A DNA stretch of 64,000 bases from Vibrio agarivorans (GTDB taxonomy: Bacteria > Pseudomonadota > Gammaproteobacteria > Enterobacterales > Vibrionaceae): NCBI RefSeq assembly GCF_030409635.1, contig NZ_JAUFQF010000004.1:2700241-2764240 (forward strand), written 5' to 3'. A program made the position numbers and the translations under genes. Numbering within the stretch: the first letter of the stretch is position 1; every line of letters begins with the position of its first letter. Of this stretch, positions 1-53,250 are shown one piece after another. The notes under the pieces were generated by a model. The model was not told the origin of the DNA. It ran no database searches and saw only the letters and a list, made by a program, of their open reading frames with translations.

Positions 1-2
1 AC

Positions 3-311
3 TACATTAAGATCAGTAAGGAGATGTTTAATGGTGAACTGTCTTTGGTATTTGTCACAGAAGAGAATGGTTTGCCTCGAGTTAACCAGTTAATTAGATA
101 CAGCGACACTGCTGTCGCCTTCAAACTGGATGTCACCGCAACGCACGTCATTGCAAGCTATAAAGCACTAAATGAAGAGAGCTGGGTTGTGGTCGGAAGC
201 ACGCCTCGATTAGCTGGTAATGAGCAAGGTGTCATGCTGTATACGTTTAGTGGAAACAGATTACAGCCCAACACCGCTGCTTTTTATGATTTTGAACTGA
301 CACGCTCATAG
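3..311 (+). CDS. 3' end of an unrecognised gene (cut by window edge)
   Basis: The reading frame is open from the first complete codon of the window to the TAG at 309-311, so this is probably the C-terminal part of a longer protein. An internal ATG at 24 would give 95 aa, but an AGGAG lies directly against it with almost no spacing, which is poor for initiation. The visible part has alternating hydrophobic and polar residues typical of beta-rich folds, with no membrane segment and no motif I recognise. It lies just upstream of the Qrr small RNA in the same direction. Function unknown. Confidence 0.6.
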   Translation, partial: YIKISKEMFNGELSLVFVTEENGLPRVNQLIRYSDTAVAFKLDVTATHVIASYKALNEESWVVVGSTPRLAGNEQGVMLYTFSGNRLQPNTAAFYDFELTRS

Positions 312-328
312 CATATTGCAAATCACTG

Positions 329-341
329 TTGCATTTTGAAA
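329..341 (+). promoter_or_regulatory. Candidate LuxO binding site upstream of qrr
   Basis: TTGCATTTTGAAA matches the published LuxO operator TTGCA-N3-TGCAA with one mismatch. It lies about 75 bp upstream of the -24 element of the qrr promoter, where a sigma-54 enhancer-binding protein would bind. A second TTGCA at 316 may be part of another half site. Inferred from motif and position only. Confidence 0.55.
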
Positions 342-415
342 CAGCAGAAGCATGACTATATAAAACCATACACACATCATTTCGGTAAGTCATTGAATAT
401 AATAAACACGCATAG

Positions 416-431
416 TTGGCATGCAGATTGT
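416..431 (+). promoter_or_regulatory. Sigma-54 (RpoN) type promoter of qrr
   Basis: TTGGCATGCAGATTGT fits the RpoN -24/-12 pattern TGGCAC-N5-TTGC. The invariant GG is at 418-419, and GT replaces the usual GC at 430-431. The spacing places the transcription start at about 443, exactly where the first base of the predicted Qrr 5' stem lies. Vibrio qrr genes are known to be driven by LuxO with sigma-54, so promoter and RNA support each other. Confidence 0.75.
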
Positions 432-442
432 ATTGTTAGTTA

Positions 443-534
443 TGACCTATGCTAGTCATTAGGTCACCTAGCCAACTGACGTTGTTTAAGAACCTTTTTA
501 GTTCTCCAGATGCTTGATAAGCATCTGGTTTTTT
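443..534 (+). ncRNA. qrr: Qrr quorum-regulatory small RNA
   Basis: The core at 461-485 (AGGTCACCTAGCCAACTGAC followed by GTTGTT) is the invariant Qrr seed region that pairs with target mRNAs such as luxR/hapR in vibrios. Around it is the standard Qrr architecture. A 5' stem-loop pairs TGACCTA (443-449) with TAGGTCA (460-466). An unpaired core and an A/U-rich linker follow. The RNA ends in an intrinsic terminator, CCAGATGCTT/AAGCATCTGG (506-528), with a T-run. The length of about 92 nt fits the family (roughly 95-110 nt). It has its own sigma-54 promoter and a LuxO-like site upstream. Phosphorylated LuxO at low cell density would activate it and Hfq would be the partner. Which Qrr paralogue it is cannot be told here; luxO is not in the window. 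Confidence 0.93.
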
Positions 535-638: not shown

Positions 639-743
639 TTACATTAAAACGCTTCGGATAGCATAAGAAACGACAAACAGCGACAATACACTTGCCGACC
701 AAATAGCCAAAAACCACAACGCCCTTTTCAACCTCTCACTCAT
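639..743 (-). CDS. DUF2474-like small bd-oxidase accessory membrane protein
   Basis: A 34-codon ORF begins at the ATG (743-741) that overlaps the TGA stop of the oxidase subunit II gene by one base (TGATG), so it is almost certainly translationally coupled to it. The protein starts MSERLKRALWFLAIWSAS and continues as a single membrane helix ending in a basic IRSVLM tail. The pattern RL..ALW...IW..SV......IR..M matches my memory of DUF2474, a short single-helix family found after CioAB-type bd oxidases. It is probably a small subunit comparable to CydX/CydZ in the plasma membrane. It is below the usual ORF length cut-off and easily missed. Family assignment is by eye. Confidence 0.8.
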   Translation of the reverse strand: MSERLKRALWFLAIWSASVLSLFVVSYAIRSVLM

Positions 744-1741
744 CAGTGATACCCCTCCCCGTGCTTTAATTTCCCTCTAAATACCCAATACGAATACGCG
801 GAGTAGGCAATAATCATGGGTAACAATATCACCGCGCCAACAAGAAGGAATTTAAGACTTGAGTCTGGTGCAGCAGTCTCGGCATACGTGAGTGCGAACG
901 GGACTAAATAAGGGAATGTGCTCACGCCAAACCCAAGCGCTGCAATGAGAAACAGCCCGATGCCACACAGGTAGGCTCGCAGTGCCTTGTGCGCCAGTAA
1001 CGAAGCGAATAACTGCCAAACACATGCCGCCGCCAGTAAAGGAATGACGATAAACAGAAACACGTTAGGTACACTGAACCAGCGCTCAAACACCAACGCA
1101 TTGGTCAAAGGCAACCATAGGCTGACCACTGCAATACTAACCACCAGCGCTAACCCCCAACGTTTGGCTATCGTGTAATAACGCCCAGCTAAGTCATCCG
1201 GTAGTTTCATGATTAACCAGCACGCGCCAAGCAAGGTGTAAGCACATAAAAGACCGAAAGCGCAAAAGAGACTAAATGGTGTTAACCAATCGAACCACAC
1301 CCCACTAAATTGTCTGCCCTCGACATCGATACCCTGTAACAACGTACCCAGCATCACACCTTGCATTAAGGTGGCGAGTAGCGAACCGAGAAAGAAAGAA
1401 GTATCCCAAAGAAACTTACCCCGTTTTGTACGAAATCGATATTCAAACGACACCCCACGCAAGATCAACCCGAGTAGCATGATAATGAGTGGCGCATACA
1501 GTGCGGGCATAATCACAGCGTATGCGAGCGGAAAGACAGCAAAAAGCCCCCCGCCCCCTAAAACTAACCAGGTCTCGTTACCATCCCAAACAGGCGCCAC
1601 ACTGTTCATCATCATATCTCGTTCATTGTCGCTATGTGCGCTTGGGAACAAAATACCTATTCCTAAATCAAACCCATCGAGAATCACGTAAATCAAGACT
1701 GCTAGACCTATCAAGGCATACCAAATTAGCGCGTAATCCAT
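743..1741 (-). CDS. cydB: Cytochrome bd-type quinol oxidase subunit II (CIO type)
   Basis: This 332-aa polytopic membrane protein starts MDYALIWYALIGLAVLIYVI and contains the conserved subunit II segment DGFDLGIGILFP near residue 22, followed by NETWLVLGGGGLFAVFP near residue 55. Both are diagnostic for CydB/CioB. With subunit I it forms the terminal oxidase that takes electrons from quinol and reduces O2 to water without pumping protons. It follows the subunit I gene by 10 bp and overlaps the next small gene by one base, so the three form one minus-strand operon. Length and sequence resemble the cyanide-insensitive (CioB/AppB-like) branch. Confidence 0.95.
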   Translation of the reverse strand: MDYALIWYALIGLAVLIYVILDGFDLGIGILFPSAHSDNERDMMMNSVAPVWDGNETWLVLGGGGLFAVFPLAYAVIMPALYAPLIIMLLGLILRGVSFEYRFRTKRGKFLWDTSFFLGSLLATLMQGVMLGTLLQGIDVEGRQFSGVWFDWLTPFSLFCAFGLLCAYTLLGACWLIMKLPDDLAGRYYTIAKRWGLALVVSIAVVSLWLPLTNALVFERWFSVPNVFLFIVIPLLAAACVWQLFASLLAHKALRAYLCGIGLFLIAALGFGVSTFPYLVPFALTYAETAAPDSSLKFLLVGAVILLPMIIAYSAYSYWVFRGKLKHGEGYH

Positions 1742-1751
1742 ATTCCAGTCC

Positions 1752-3140
1752 TCAGGTTAAGTGATTTGAATGAGTCGTCGCTGGCGCTTCGCTGCCATCA
1801 GGTAGGCGAGCATCGAGCGATTGCTCATATTTCGATGGTGACTTTCTCATGAGGCGTAAGAGATAGAAAAAACCGCAACCAAACACAACAAAATACACAA
1901 CGATGAACGCGGTTAAGGAGACGCTCACCGCTGCGGCATCAATCGGTGATGCAGAATCGGCTGTTGTCAGTAGTCCGTAAACCGTGTACGGCTGGCGACC
2001 TACCTCGGTCGTTATCCACCCCGCTAAGACTGCGATAAAACCCGCCGGCCCAAACCAAGTACAAATATGTAAGAAGGGCCTTTGCTCGTAAAGGTTATTC
2101 TTTTTACGCAACCACAAGCTGTACCAACCAATCGCGAGCATAGCGAAACCAATCCCTACCATGACTCTAAAGCTCCAAAAGACTATGGTCACGGGAGGAT
2201 GTTCTTCTTCAGGGAAAGCGTCTAAACCTTTGACTTCACCGTTTAAGTCATGCGTTAAAATCAAACTGCCAAGCTTAGGTATCTCGACGGCGTAATCCAT
2301 CCTGTTGTTCTCTTCATCTGGAATGCCAAAGAGAATGAGGGGTGCGCCTTGATGGGTTTCAAAGTGCCCTTCCATCGCTGCGATTTTCGCGGGCTGGTGT
2401 TCAAGTGTGTTTAAGCCATGGAAATCACCGGCGACGATTTGTAGTGGTGTAACGATAGCTGCCATCCACATTGCCATCGAGAACATGGTACGAGCCAGAG
2501 GGTTATGAGGCGCTTTGAGTAAATGATACGCACCAACGGCGGCTACGACGAAGGCCGTTGTCAGGTAAGCAGCGAACAGCATGTGTACGAGGCGATAAGG
2601 GAATGATGGGTTGAATACCACTTCAAACCAATCTACCGGAATAAACTGCCCGGCTTCGTTGTAATCGAACCCTGCGGGAGTTTGCATCCAACTGTTGACT
2701 GACAATATCCAGAAGGCAGATAAGAACGTACCAAATGCGACCACACAGGTTGATGCGAAATGCACTTTCTTGCCTACTCGTTCCATGCCAAACAACATGA
2801 CACCCAAGAATCCTGCTTCGAGGAAAAATGCAGTGAAAACTTCATATCCCATCAAAGGCCCCAATACCGGGCCGGTCTTATCAGAGAAAACACTCCAGTT
2901 TGTCCCGAACTGATAACTGAGCACAATGCCGCTCACCACACCCATACCAAAGCTTATTGCGAATATTTTCAGCCAGTATTTATAGAGCTGAATGTACTTG
3001 TCTTCGCCCGTTTTTAACCACAAGCCTTCCAGCACTGCGAGAAAGCTCGCGAGACCGATAGTAAACGCCGGGAAAATGATGTGAAACGAAACCGTGAAAG
3101 CAAATTGAAACCGCGCAAGGTCGATAGCCACAGAATCCAT
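1752..3140 (-). CDS. cydA: Cytochrome bd-type quinol oxidase subunit I (CIO type)
   Basis: A 462-aa subunit I protein. It begins MDSVAIDLARFQFAFTVSFH, which holds the early conserved RFQF segment and a heme-ligand His near residue 20. Further on are GREQ-region equivalents and the quinol/heme motif GRQPYTVYGLLTTADS near residue 390. The short length (E. coli CydA is about 520 aa) reflects a short Q-loop. The GRQP-x-x-VYGLL-TAD form is typical of cyanide-insensitive oxidases. It would carry hemes b558, b595 and d in the cytoplasmic membrane. It is the first gene of the minus-strand operon, divergent from cti, with 240 bp of shared upstream DNA. CIO assignment is inferred from Q-loop length and motif. 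Confidence 0.94.
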   Translation of the reverse strand: MDSVAIDLARFQFAFTVSFHIIFPAFTIGLASFLAVLEGLWLKTGEDKYIQLYKYWLKIFAISFGMGVVSGIVLSYQFGTNWSVFSDKTGPVLGPLMGYEVFTAFFLEAGFLGVMLFGMERVGKKVHFASTCVVAFGTFLSAFWILSVNSWMQTPAGFDYNEAGQFIPVDWFEVVFNPSFPYRLVHMLFAAYLTTAFVVAAVGAYHLLKAPHNPLARTMFSMAMWMAAIVTPLQIVAGDFHGLNTLEHQPAKIAAMEGHFETHQGAPLILFGIPDEENNRMDYAVEIPKLGSLILTHDLNGEVKGLDAFPEEEHPPVTIVFWSFRVMVGIGFAMLAIGWYSLWLRKKNNLYEQRPFLHICTWFGPAGFIAVLAGWITTEVGRQPYTVYGLLTTADSASPIDAAAVSVSLTAFIVVYFVVFGCGFFYLLRLMRKSPSKYEQSLDARLPDGSEAPATTHSNHLT

Positions 3141-19090: not shown

Positions 19091-21232
19091 ATGAGTAGTC
19101 CTAACAGTTGTAGTCATTCAACTTGTTGCTCGGCAAAACAAGAAAACACACAAAAACTTGAAGCTGTAGGGAAGCGCTTCAGCTGGCAATTGGAGGGTAT
19201 GGACTGCCCGAGTTGCGCAGCAAAAGTCGAAAAAGCAGTAGAGCAAGTCAATGGAGTAATTGCCGCTCGCGTTGCTTTTTCAACTGAGCGTTTAATCGTC
19301 TCGGCCAACGCCGATTTAAACCCAGATGATATTATCGAGACCATCGAATCCACAGGTTTTACTGTCGTTGATGGCTCAAAATCTGATAACCAGAAAGTCA
19401 CTTCGCGTAACAAACCTCTCTATTACATTCTTGCGGTTGCAATACTTTTTGCCATTGCGATGCTGTCAGGTAGATTCAACCCCGATTTGAAGCAAACTTT
19501 GTTGTATGGCGTCACTCTTATCGCATTGATCCCTACTGGTAAAAAATCGGTCAGCTTAATGCGTAACGGCTCGCCATTTTCGATTGAAACCTTAATGTCG
19601 GTGGCCGTCATTGGTGCCCTCTTCCTTGGCGAAACTGTTGAGGCAGCCATGGTATTGCTGCTGTTTATGATCGGTGAGCAGCTCGAAGGTTTCGCAGCCA
19701 ACAAAGCTCGCAGCGGTGTGCAAAAATTGGTGGAGCTAACACCAGATCAAGTTCGTCACGTTAAAGAGGACGGCGAAATTGAAACCGTACCAGTGAGCGC
19801 TATTTTAGTTGGCGACAAGATTGAAGTTCTACCGGGTGAACGCTTGTCTGTTGATGGCGAGTTGTTAAGTTGTCATGGCCACTTTGACCAAAGTGCATTG
19901 ACCGGAGAGCCACTACCTGTCGAGCTTAAATCCAATGCCAATGTTATGGCTGGCAGCTTGGTAGTAGATAAAACCGTTCGCTTGAAAGTCACCTCTGAAC
20001 AAGGTGACAGTGCGGTTGATCGTATCATTCGCCTAATCGAGGAAGCCGAAGAGAAGAAAGCACCAGTCGAGCGTTTTATCGACAAGTTCAGCCGCTGGTA
20101 TACGCCTCTGATGATGTTTATCGCTTCTCTTGTTGCTGTTCTTCCACCACTGATGGTTGGCGGTGATTGGCAAGAATGGATCTACAAAGCACTCACTTTG
20201 CTTCTAATTGCCTGTCCTTGTGCTTTAGTTATCTCAACTCCAGCGGCAATTACTTCTGCGCTAGCGAATGCAACTCGTAGAGGTGCTTTGATCAAGGGTG
20301 GATTAGCTTTGGAACAATTGGGACGCGTTGACAAAATTGCCTTTGATAAAACCGGCACACTGACTCAAGGCAAACCTGAAGTTGTCGATTTCCAAGGTGA
20401 TGATGCATTGCTTGCTCTTGCAGCATCGATTGAAATGAAATCAACGCACCCGCTTGCAATTGCGATCGTAAAAGAGGCACAACATCGTCATTTAGCGCTC
20501 CCAGAGGCAACTGACACCATGACTATTTCCGGCGTTGGTGCATCTGGTGTGGTTGGGCATCAGTCGATTCAAGTCCTTGCTCCTCGCCACATTCAAGAAC
20601 TTACCGATGAGTTTAAGGCACAGATTCATAGCTTCGAGTCTAAAGGACAAACTGTCGTCGTGGTGACTGTTGACGAGCAGCCTAAAGCACTAATTGCATT
20701 ACAAGATACTCTGAGACAAGACGCGATAGAAACTATTCGCTCACTAAAAGCACTTGGCATTGAGAGCGTTATGCTAACAGGCGATAACCAGCGTGCGGCA
20801 GCAAGCATAGCTAGTCAATTAGACATGAGCTTTAAGGCTGAATTGATGCCGGGTCACAAACTTAGCGCATTAGAGTCTATCTCTGGAAATGTCGCTATGG
20901 TCGGTGATGGTATTAACGATGCACCTGCGCTTAAAGCCGCTTCAGTAGGCATCGCGATGGGTAGCGGAACGGATGTAGCACTCGAAACAGCAGATTGCGC
21001 CCTAACCCACAGCCGACTTCAATCGATCACTGGCTTGATTAAACTATCACGCAAAACAATGCAGATTATTCGCCAAAATGTTGCGTTAGCGATTGGTAGT
21101 AAGGTGCTGTTCCTAGTAACGACTTTACTCGGTGTAACTGGACTTTGGGCTGCGGTTCTGGCTGATACCGGGGCAACGGCGCTTGTGACCCTCAATGCCC
21201 TTCGTTTACTGAAAGAGAACATTGAGTCTTAG
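19091..21232 (+). CDS. zntA: Zn2+/Cd2+/Pb2+-translocating P-type ATPase
   Basis: A 713-aa PIB-type ATPase. The N-terminus is Cys/His-rich (SCSHSTCCS), followed by a heavy-metal-associated domain with GMDCPSCAAKV (residues about 37-47). The transmembrane metal site is CPCALV. The actuator loop has TGE (LTGEPLPV), phosphorylation occurs at DKTGTLTQGKP, the SxHP motif is KSTHPLA, and the hinge is MVGDGINDAPAL. CPC and the Cys-rich head define ZntA-like pumps that export zinc, cadmium and lead from the cytoplasm. Length fits the family. A MerR-type regulator would be expected, but none is adjacent. A weak terminator follows. Confidence 0.93.
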   Translation: MSSPNSCSHSTCCSAKQENTQKLEAVGKRFSWQLEGMDCPSCAAKVEKAVEQVNGVIAARVAFSTERLIVSANADLNPDDIIETIESTGFTVVDGSKSDNQKVTSRNKPLYYILAVAILFAIAMLSGRFNPDLKQTLLYGVTLIALIPTGKKSVSLMRNGSPFSIETLMSVAVIGALFLGETVEAAMVLLLFMIGEQLEGFAANKARSGVQKLVELTPDQVRHVKEDGEIETVPVSAILVGDKIEVLPGERLSVDGELLSCHGHFDQSALTGEPLPVELKSNANVMAGSLVVDKTVRLKVTSEQGDSAVDRIIRLIEEAEEKKAPVERFIDKFSRWYTPLMMFIASLVAVLPPLMVGGDWQEWIYKALTLLLIACPCALVISTPAAITSALANATRRGALIKGGLALEQLGRVDKIAFDKTGTLTQGKPEVVDFQGDDALLALAASIEMKSTHPLAIAIVKEAQHRHLALPEATDTMTISGVGASGVVGHQSIQVLAPRHIQELTDEFKAQIHSFESKGQTVVVVTVDEQPKALIALQDTLRQDAIETIRSLKALGIESVMLTGDNQRAAASIASQLDMSFKAELMPGHKLSALESISGNVAMVGDGINDAPALKAASVGIAMGSGTDVALETADCALTHSRLQSITGLIKLSRKTMQIIRQNVALAIGSKVLFLVTTLLGVTGLWAAVLADTGATALVTLNALRLLKENIES

Positions 21233-21364: not shown

Positions 21365-21439
21365 GTCGGGTGGACGACACTTGTTACCAAGTGCCGTCTC
21401 CCTAAGAACCCAGCGTGCAACTTTCACTGCACTAGGCTC
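21365..21439 (-). mobile_element. Relic of a group II intron 3' end (domains V and VI)
   Basis: On the minus strand, 21439-21406 is exactly 34 nt and folds as group II domain V. An 8-bp lower stem pairs GAGCCTAG with CTGGGTTC. A two-base CG bulge, a 4-bp upper stem TGCA/TGCA and a wobble-closed GAAA tetraloop follow. It begins with the catalytic AGC triad at positions 2-4. After the junction TTAGGGA comes a 10-bp perfect domain VI stem (21398-21373) and a terminal CACCCGAC, resembling intron 3' ends. No reverse transcriptase ORF remains upstream on that strand, so the element is decayed. The surrounding 21240-21746 holds no gene I can support. Confidence 0.8.
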
Positions 21440-21575
21440 AAGCCTTCACTAAAGCACCGTTTGATACCCAGCAACTTATTGTAGTGGATGAGCGATTTTG
21501 GCCAGCCATATGTAGGCTGGCAGCATGGTTGAGATACTAGAAGTAATGCAAGAAGTAGAGGTGGCTTATGGATCT

Positions 21576-21746: not shown

Positions 21747-23483
21747 TTAATCATCAAACAACAAGTTAATCGCGACACCAATCAAGACTAGCCCCATGAT
21801 CGGAATTAACACCGCTTGAGGCGAGCGTTCGATATAAGGCATGTTCTCCGCAATCAACAGGCCCCACTCTGGTGTCGGTGGCTTAGCCCCTAAACCGATA
21901 AAGCTCAATGACGTTAGGCTCAAAGTAATGACGGGCAAGCGCAACAGAGCATGACGCAGCAATGGTGGTAATACATAAGGTAGCAAGTAGTAACGTAGCA
22001 TCCGCCACTTTTGCGTTCCCCAGGTTGGTGCTAGGTGTGTATAAGGCTGCGCTTTTGCTTCTACCAATAAGCTAGAGCAATGAGCCGCTAAGGGAGCCCA
22101 AGACACCAAAACAATAGCGATTAGGGCACTATTGGGATTCATTCCCGTCAAACCAGCAACGAGTAAACCAGCAATAATGTATGGCACCCCTTTTGTTATC
22201 TCAATAAAGCCCTGGCTAAAGCGAGTACAGAAGCCCATCGCCAAGCCCACTATCAAGCTCAGCAAGGTCGCAAAAGCACCCGCTTTGATCGTCGCAATCA
22301 TACCTTGCCCAACGCGAGCGAGTAGATCACGCCCAATACCATCTGCTCCCATCGGAGCGTCAAAGCTTGCTGCCGCAAGTCTGGCGAATTGACTGGTTGT
22401 CGCATCTCGCTGAGACGCCCACCACACGACGATAGCCAGCGATGCAAAAATCATCACACTTACTGAACGCTTTAGCTTGGAGCGTGTAAAGTTGAAACTT
22501 GAATGACTGCTTACCAACTTGCCACTCTGTAGGCTGTGCCCAAGAACGACTTTTTGCAACAAAATACCCAAGCTGCTGACCAGTATTGAGAACAGCAACA
22601 AGACCAACAAACCACCCTGCACCATTGGCAAGTCTTGTGCTTTTGTTGCTCCTAGGATCAGTCGCCCTATTCCGGGAATCGAGAATATCTGCTCAACTGC
22701 AACTGCGCCGCCAGTTAGACCGATCACCGTCATTGCTATTTGAGGAAATAGATTGCTTATGGCACGCCAAAGAGCAAAACGAGCCACTTTTCGAGTTTGA
22801 ACATTGGCGCTTAACCAAGTGATCACCCAAGGTTCGGATAACACGCGCTTCAAACTGTCGTTCAGCAAACGGCTAAATAATCCGCTTGCAGGTAAAGCCA
22901 AAGAAAATGCCGGCAACCATAAGTTTTCTATCCCTTTCCAGCCATAAGGCGGAAAAACACCGAGCCAAACCGAAAACACGAGAATCAATACTGCCGCAAT
23001 CACATATTCAGGTAATGCGACTAAAACCGAGCTGACGGCATTATGTTCTACACCAAGACGGTGGGTTTTCCAGCGCCAAAACGTGTAGCACACGCTGATA
23101 CCACACAACACAACCGTTAACGCGAGCGCTGTCGTCGTGAGAGTCAGCGACGTCATTGCGGTATTTTTTACCGCGTCCATCACAGAAGAACTATCAATCC
23201 AAGAGGCACCTAAATCCCCTTGAAGTGCGCTGCTTGCCCAGCTCCATAGTCGCTCTGATGTACTTCTATCGAGTTCGAGATCTGCTCTAACCGCAGCTAA
23301 CGCCTCTGGGGTTAGAAGTTGCTGTTGCCCTGAACGAGCACGAAGTATCGTTTGGCTTGGGTCAATGCCCGCTATTTCCGGCATTAACCCAACAAGAATC
23401 ACCACAATCAGCAGCGCTATAAGTCGTGATATCCACGGAAGCATAGCGTTGAACTGAGAGCGCTGTGTTACAGCTGACAGCAT
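21747..23483 (-). CDS. Fused dipeptide/oligopeptide-type ABC permease (DppB-DppC fusion)
   Basis: A 578-aa protein containing two permease modules that are normally separate. Residues about 15-310 resemble DppB/OppB, with the conserved VEQIFSIPGIGRLILGATKA exit segment at about 270. Residues about 330-575 resemble DppC/OppC, ending with SLSFIGLGAKPPTPEWGLLI, the hallmark of the C-type subunit. A hydrophobic, basic linker joins them. It would form the whole membrane channel from one chain. It is the last gene of a four-gene operon, after the binding protein with a five-base gap, and is followed by a terminator. Confidence 0.9.
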   Translation of the reverse strand: MLSAVTQRSQFNAMLPWISRLIALLIVVILVGLMPEIAGIDPSQTILRARSGQQQLLTPEALAAVRADLELDRSTSERLWSWASSALQGDLGASWIDSSSVMDAVKNTAMTSLTLTTTALALTVVLCGISVCYTFWRWKTHRLGVEHNAVSSVLVALPEYVIAAVLILVFSVWLGVFPPYGWKGIENLWLPAFSLALPASGLFSRLLNDSLKRVLSEPWVITWLSANVQTRKVARFALWRAISNLFPQIAMTVIGLTGGAVAVEQIFSIPGIGRLILGATKAQDLPMVQGGLLVLLLFSILVSSLGILLQKVVLGHSLQSGKLVSSHSSFNFTRSKLKRSVSVMIFASLAIVVWWASQRDATTSQFARLAAASFDAPMGADGIGRDLLARVGQGMIATIKAGAFATLLSLIVGLAMGFCTRFSQGFIEITKGVPYIIAGLLVAGLTGMNPNSALIAIVLVSWAPLAAHCSSLLVEAKAQPYTHLAPTWGTQKWRMLRYYLLPYVLPPLLRHALLRLPVITLSLTSLSFIGLGAKPPTPEWGLLIAENMPYIERSPQAVLIPIMGLVLIGVAINLLFDD

Positions 23484-52822: not shown

Positions 52823-52898
52823 TGGAGCGACACACGAGGTTCGAACTCGTGACCTCAACCTTGGCAAGGTTGCGCTCTACCAACTGAGCTAGTGTCGC
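52823..52898 (-). tRNA. tRNA-Gly (GCC), distal copy
   Basis: 76 nt, acceptor GCGACAC/GTGTCGC, anticodon loop TTGCCAA (GCC, glycine), T-arm CGAGTTCGAACCTCG, encoded CCA at 52823-52825. Identical in sequence to the copy at 53098-53173. Confidence 0.97.
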
Positions 52899-52935
52899 AT
52901 AATGCAGTGAATCAACTTCACAACATATTATAAGA

Positions 52936-53022
52936 TGGTGCCCCGGGCCGGACTTGAACCGGCACAACGCGAACGTCGAGGGATTTTAAATCCCTTGTGT
53001 CTACCAATTCCACCACCAGGGC
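52936..53022 (-). tRNA. tRNA-Leu (UAA)
   Basis: 87 nt class II tRNA with a long variable arm, acceptor GCCCTGG/CCGGGGC, anticodon loop TTTAAAA (TAA, leucine) and encoded CCA at 52936-52938. Confidence 0.97.
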
Positions 53023-53097
53023 ACGCAAAACTTGGTTTTGCGATGGTTGACACCATCCTTGATATCGACCCTTTAAGGAATCGCTATCACAAAAATT

Positions 53098-53173
53098 TGG
53101 AGCGACACACGAGGTTCGAACTCGTGACCTCAACCTTGGCAAGGTTGCGCTCTACCAACTGAGCTAGTGTCGC
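53098..53173 (-). tRNA. tRNA-Gly (GCC), proximal copy
   Basis: 76 nt, same sequence as 52823-52898; anticodon GCC. Only four bases separate it from tRNA-Cys. Confidence 0.97.
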
Positions 53174-53176
53174 AAA

Positions 53177-53250
53177 TGGAGGCGCGTCCCGGAGTCGAAC
53201 CGAGGTCCACGGATTTGCAATCCGCTGCATAGCCACTCTGCCAACACGCC
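53177..53250 (-). tRNA. tRNA-Cys (GCA)
   Basis: 74 nt, acceptor GGCGTGT/ACGCGCC (with a wobble), anticodon loop TTGCAAA (GCA, cysteine), encoded CCA at 53177-53179. First gene of the four-tRNA transcript Cys-Gly-Leu-Gly, which follows pgsA as in other gammaproteobacteria. Confidence 0.97.

Follow-up and report, generated by a model that had tools for sequence, protein, structure and literature searches.

The window analysed here, a stretch of 64,000 nucleotides from Vibrio agarivorans, contains near its start a gap (positions 312-742) between a gene with two Pfam hits upstream and the genes of a cytochrome bd oxidase downstream (Table 1). The longest ORF listed as overlapping this gap is only 48 aa, in agreement with its description as gene-free in the initial annotation, which had placed here a complete Qrr quorum-sensing RNA gene with its sigma-54 promoter. 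Qrr RNAs are a known family of small RNAs in Vibrio that assist the cells in distinguishing low from high cell density. A search with the Rfam Qrr covariance model (RF00378), the check proposed for that claim, gave a match at 443-538 of the forward strand with a score of 53.8 bits (E = 4.5e-7 for the whole window), which clears the gathering score of 50 by 3.8 bits. RF00378 was the sole Rfam family matching 300-760 at E ≤ 0.1.

Table 1. Features of the Qrr locus and its neighbours (positions in the window; G007 is the genome of the genus that holds a close copy)
Feature	Position	Strand	Evidence or remark
3' part of the upstream gene, whose product of 183 aa matches Pfam GH43_C2 and DUF1349	1-311	+	stop codon 309-311; conserved neighbour in G007
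LuxO-like box 1, TAGCATATTGCAA	309-321	+	1 mismatch to TTGCAWWWTGCAA; centre about -128
LuxO-like box 2, TTGCATTTTGAAA	329-341	+	1 mismatch to TTGCAWWWTGCAA; centre about -108
Sigma-54-type -24/-12 element, TGGCAT-GCAGA-TTGTA	417-432	+	TGGCAT 417-422, TTGTA 428-432
Gene for the Qrr small RNA, with a predicted length of 92 nt	443-534	+	Rfam match (reaching 538), fold
Stem-loop 1 (SL1)	443-466	+	443-449 paired with 460-466; AGTC where AAGCC (aphA region I) expected
Block of 62 nt identical in window and G007	453-514	+	alignment
Pairing core GGTCACCTAGCCAACTGACGTTGTT, 25 nt, contains region II	462-486	+	intact; predicted pairing with own luxR-type and luxO mRNAs
Stem-loop 3 (SL3), short, AGAAC/GTTCT replacing usual GTGAAC/GTTCAC	489-505	+	fold, locus comparison
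Intrinsic terminator, stem of 10 bp (506-528), loop of 3 nt, TTTTTT	506-534	+	fold and terminator scan
Cytochrome bd oxidase subunit II, convergent	743-1741	-	downstream neighbour
Cytochrome bd oxidase subunit I	1752-3140		beside subunit II

The RNA predicted from 443-534 folds with an energy of -27.4 kcal/mol (z = -3.95), a stability equalled by none of 200 shuffled sequences, and in its predicted fold SL1 is followed by a weak hairpin in the core, by the short SL3 and by the terminator. The conserved pairing core of Qrr RNAs has been described as 32 nt in length (PMC4211561); directly 3' of GGTCACCTAGCCAACTGACGTTGTT, this RNA has the bases TAAGAA versus the usual AGTGAA. A terminator scan of 243-760 returned four terminator-like sites (shuffle mean 0.4), and both the stem and the T run of the intrinsic terminator claimed in the initial annotation were located.

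The putative promoter is a -24/-12 element in which GG (418-419) and GT (430-431) are 12 bp apart. Counted from the -12 base, +1 falls on 443, which is the first base of the RF00378 match, and the 5' stem-loop begins at this promoter-derived start, as had been claimed. Also as claimed, the -12 dinucleotide is GT in place of GC. Since GG and TGC at -24/-12 are reported as conserved elements of sigma-54 promoters (PMC3844500), a lower activity of the GT promoter is plausible. Among 60 distinct Qrr promoters the dinucleotide is GC in 57, GT in two and GA in one; these promoters were drawn from loci L001-L068, with repeats of one locus removed, and as the loci are mostly high-scoring matches, Qrr1-type copies are under-represented among them. 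The two GT promoters are those of the window Qrr and of its ortholog in G007 (TGGCAC-GCCGC-TTGTA, aligned with the window element). Being common to the window Qrr and its sole close relative, the variant appears to be a kept lineage trait rather than a private lesion, and it was most simply inherited from a common ancestor.

The LuxO motif has been reported as TTGCAWWWTGCAA (PMC10162802). The two boxes given in Table 1 are the only sites in the 64-kb window with at most one mismatch to this motif. When 243-442 was shuffled (n = 2000), at least one LuxO-like site occurred in 32 sequences and two sites in none. G007 has two LuxO-type boxes at matching positions and with the same 20-bp spacing, with zero and one mismatch. 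The LuxO-like operator of the initial annotation is thus present, in the form of two boxes, and as the first of these starts at 309, where it overlaps the stop codon of the upstream gene, the regulatory unit is real but extends over 309-534 and not 316-534. A LuxR-type feedback site was not found at the window Qrr, the best candidate having 12 of 21 matches, with 89 of 100 shuffles as good.

The genome (4.9 Mb in four contigs) has four RF00378 matches, of 111.9, 97.1, 89.4 and 53.8 bits, the window Qrr being the lowest. Genes for luxO and luxU were found, those for RpoN and Hfq were recognised by Pfam, and the genes that we take to be aphA and the LuxR/HapR-type TetR gene were named from their sequences. 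The 89.4-bit copy (C4:74103) lies on the same contig as the window Qrr and is divergent from luxO-luxU, which identifies it as Qrr1; the two are 2.63 Mb apart on a linear contig, and would be 0.39 Mb apart on a circular one. The view that the window Qrr is one of the dispersed copies therefore holds with respect to its position, as luxO-luxU stands at the C4:74103 Qrr, but it is not an ordinary one, as it lacks AAGCC and has an SL1, an SL3 and a terminator of its own. With Qrr1 it has in common the core with region II, the LuxO boxes, the sigma-54 element, a terminator and an SL1 without the AAGCC region I motif (a Qrr1 trait according to PMC3262071). It differs from Qrr1 in its longer SL1 with another loop, its GT at -12, its SL3 and terminator, and its location away from luxO, the Qrr1 subtype being recognised by its divergent position beside that gene. 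With the two copies of the Qrr2-5 type (C1:594787 and C2:142964) it shares the core, the non-luxO location, LuxO boxes and the sigma-54 element, whereas AAGCC, an SL3 of the GTGAA/TTCAC type and a linker before the terminator are found in both of these and not in the window Qrr, which scores 53.8 bits versus 97.1 and 111.9. The AGCC in SL1 by which the aphA-activating Qrr2-5 subtype is recognised is likewise absent from it.

Comparison by blastn with 227 genomes of the genus identified one close copy, in G007 (C1:1766894-1766987; 89% identical over 94 nt), the remaining matches listed being of about 28-50 nt around the core. The candidates scored per genome were three for blastn, up to 16 for the RF00378 scan and up to 18, with strict filters, for a covariance model of the pair, and further remote copies could exist beyond the matches listed. 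The G007 copy (C1:1766886-1766979) is an ortholog, being syntenic and sharing the 62-nt block, GT at -12 and two LuxO boxes. Upstream of both copies lie the same LysR, radical SAM and DUF1349-like genes (272/318, 293/339 and 103/181 amino acids identical, respectively), and downstream in G007 the same cytochrome bd genes follow after two extra genes (subunit II, 303/332 identical). These extra genes, a cation-efflux gene and one that we presume to be MarR-like, separate the Qrr from the cytochrome bd genes, unlike in the window, and the terminator loop also differs. The ortholog scores 44.5 bits with RF00378, which is below the cut-off. The pair model, built from the two sequences with a structure assigned by hand, gave these 117.3 and 116.4 bits, as expected since both built it; against the 227 genomes, the best other match listed had 57.9 bits. 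LuxO is 93% identical in G007 and at most 81% identical in the others among the genomes listed, so that the window genome and G007 look like an isolated pair. At E ≤ 0.001 the upstream gene has a match in 16 of the 227 genomes (a weak and broken one in one genome), and among 17 loci examined a Qrr core stands beside this gene only in G000 and G007, with an additional one-mismatch core match in reverse orientation at one upstream-gene locus (L070). Relatives of the upstream radical SAM gene at 12 loci (65-78% identity) had no match to a 13-nt core probe with at most one mismatch within ~7 kb. The window Qrr and its ortholog are probably a divergent two-species sub-lineage, without region I, with their own SL1, SL3 and terminator, and with GT at -12.

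As Shao and Bassler showed (PMC3262071), both region I (AGCC in SL1) and region II (ACCU, part of the core) are required for activation of aphA; for luxR and luxO it is region II that is required, and Qrr1 is without region I. AAGCC was found in SL1 at 56 of 60 distinct loci, missing from the genome's own Qrr1, the window Qrr, the ortholog and L027. Duplex energies were calculated with restricted target windows and, separately, in a looser calculation with longer targets. With the restricted windows, the window Qrr gave -23.5 kcal/mol with its own luxR (range for the genome's other three copies, -19.8 to -23.1) and -23.1 kcal/mol with its own luxO (other own Qrrs, -22.0), and thus has predicted complementarity to luxR/hapR and luxO near the start codon. 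With its own aphA it gave -21.8 kcal/mol, the copies with region I giving -29.0 and -28.2 and Qrr1 -16.3, a value equal to that of the core alone. For the aphA of G007 the energies were -19.3 (window Qrr), -21.3 (ortholog) and -29.4 kcal/mol (both copies with region I). Among 2000 shuffles of the loop, pairing with aphA was as strong in 234 (own aphA) and 1069 (G007 aphA) for the window Qrr and in 737 and 790, respectively, for the ortholog, and in only one to four for the copies with region I. A remnant of region I is possible in the form of 4 bp, AGUC with GGCU of aphA, one being a G-U pair; this remnant and the energy of -21.8 versus -16.3 kcal/mol suggest that activation of aphA by the window Qrr may be weak rather than nil. 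In the looser calculation, pairing of equal strength was also obtained with shuffled versions of the own targets, in as many as 19 (luxR), 47 (aphA) and four (luxO) cases out of 100. The duplex method over-extends on longer targets, so the proposal for luxR rests on core identity and homology more than on energy. Pairing of the SL1 loop seemed to continue over the start codons of luxR and luxO, but a loop re-aimed at these was rejected, since among 2000 shuffled loops 859 did equally well for own luxR and 489 for own luxO.

Judged from its sequence, 443-534 is a genuine Qrr gene whose control elements are of the sigma-54 and LuxO types, and the claim of a complete gene is borne out by the RF00378 score, the promoter, the LuxO-like boxes and the terminator. 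It is a new, divergent member of an already known RNA family and of modest novelty. We consider it likely that this is a functional, lineage-specific Qrr gene driven by phosphorylated LuxO and sigma-54, which lowers luxR and luxO and is a poor activator of aphA. At low cell density, phosphorylated LuxO on the boxes at 309-341 would activate sigma-54 RNA polymerase at 417-432, giving an Hfq-type RNA of ~92 nt with its 5' end at 443 and its stop at the terminator (534). The core would pair around the start codons of the luxR-type and luxO mRNAs and lower their translation, while SL1, lacking the region I motif, would activate aphA poorly, as for Qrr1. That the window Qrr is transcribed, depends on LuxO and RpoN, is bound by Hfq and acts on these targets is our inference. 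Counted against this proposal are the single mismatch in each LuxO box, the low RF00378 margin, the score of the ortholog below the cut-off and the GT at -12 versus the conserved TGC, with which activity could be low.

The lowest RF00378 score of the four own matches, a -12 GT found in just two of 60 promoters and the imperfect LuxO boxes would also fit a decaying copy, in which the promoter was weakened by the GT and RNA production lost. Such a pseudogene is very improbable. The 62 nt of 453-514 are identical in the two species, versus only 127 of 395 (32%) fourfold-degenerate sites across four neighbouring genes, which argues that the gene is constrained and not decaying; in the rest of the intergenic alignment, visual inspection picks out the -24/-12 element, the terminator and the region of the boxes, and the terminator stem, the promoter spacing and two LuxO-type boxes have been retained in both. 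The window Qrr is probably functional. It is unlikely, though overlapping with the proposal of a LuxO-driven gene, that the RNA is made without cell density being its (sole) control, like V. harveyi qrr5, reported to be outside quorum-sensing control (PMC2680268), or V. fischeri qrr1, at whose LuxO boxes another enhancer-binding protein, SypG, acts (PMC10162802). The variant -12 and the failure to detect a LuxR-type feedback site are consistent with this, while the two LuxO-type boxes at equivalent places in both species speak against it.

Both species have the stretch TAGTCATTAGG in SL1, which is absent from the other Qrr loci compared and could point to a conserved loop that pairs with a target outside the ordinary Qrr regulon. 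This would be compatible with the LuxO-driven gene proposed above, but is improbable, as the loop pairs no better than shuffled loops (as good in 859, 489 and 234 of 2000 for own luxR, luxO and aphA, respectively). Rather unlikely, too, is a clade-specific Qrr subtype uncoupled from aphA by the loss of region I and with its own promoter strength, the -12 GT being kept by selection, which would tune repression of luxR and luxO, or a target read by SL1, independently of AphA activation.

The retention in vibrios of several Qrr RNAs, largely redundant with one another, still calls for an explanation. A conserved copy away from luxO that has lost the aphA region and kept the luxR/luxO core offers a natural test of the splitting of targets among siblings, and the -12 variant common to both species one of promoter tuning. 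No published report of such a divergent copy was found among the titles and abstracts of the open-licence papers retrieved. Because one member of the pair lies slightly above the Rfam cut-off and the other slightly below it, the number of divergent copies like these may be underestimated. One survey searched for qrr genes using 31 nt of V. harveyi qrr1, which it calls the 3'-most (PMC8043402).

RF00378 matches are present in 214 of the 227 genus genomes. Five of these (G175, G093, G155, G158 and G219) have eight or nine matches, and at least six were found in 11 of 227; two reports give the number of qrr genes in a species as between one and five (PMC8043402, PMC4211561). L027 (G015:C1:12943-13070), the sole Qrr match of its genome, carries GA at -12 and a longer, entirely different SL1 that lacks AAGCC. 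Tandem Qrr pairs were identified at L025 (G003:C2:681865-682371; starts about 400 bp apart) and, similarly, in G007 (C2:611985-612362; about 275 bp apart).

Elsewhere in the window, 77 positions on the reverse strand (21365-21441) match an Rfam group II intron model with 55.6 bits (cut-off 40). The match, perhaps a remnant, lies in a gap of ~500 bp between genes that are presumably heavy-metal P-type ATPase-like (19091-21232) and ABC-permease-like (21747-23483), and none of the listed ORFs of at least 150 aa near it resembles a reverse transcriptase. A cluster of four tRNA genes was also identified on the reverse strand (52826-53250), two of which (52826-52898 and 53101-53173) are identical in alignments.
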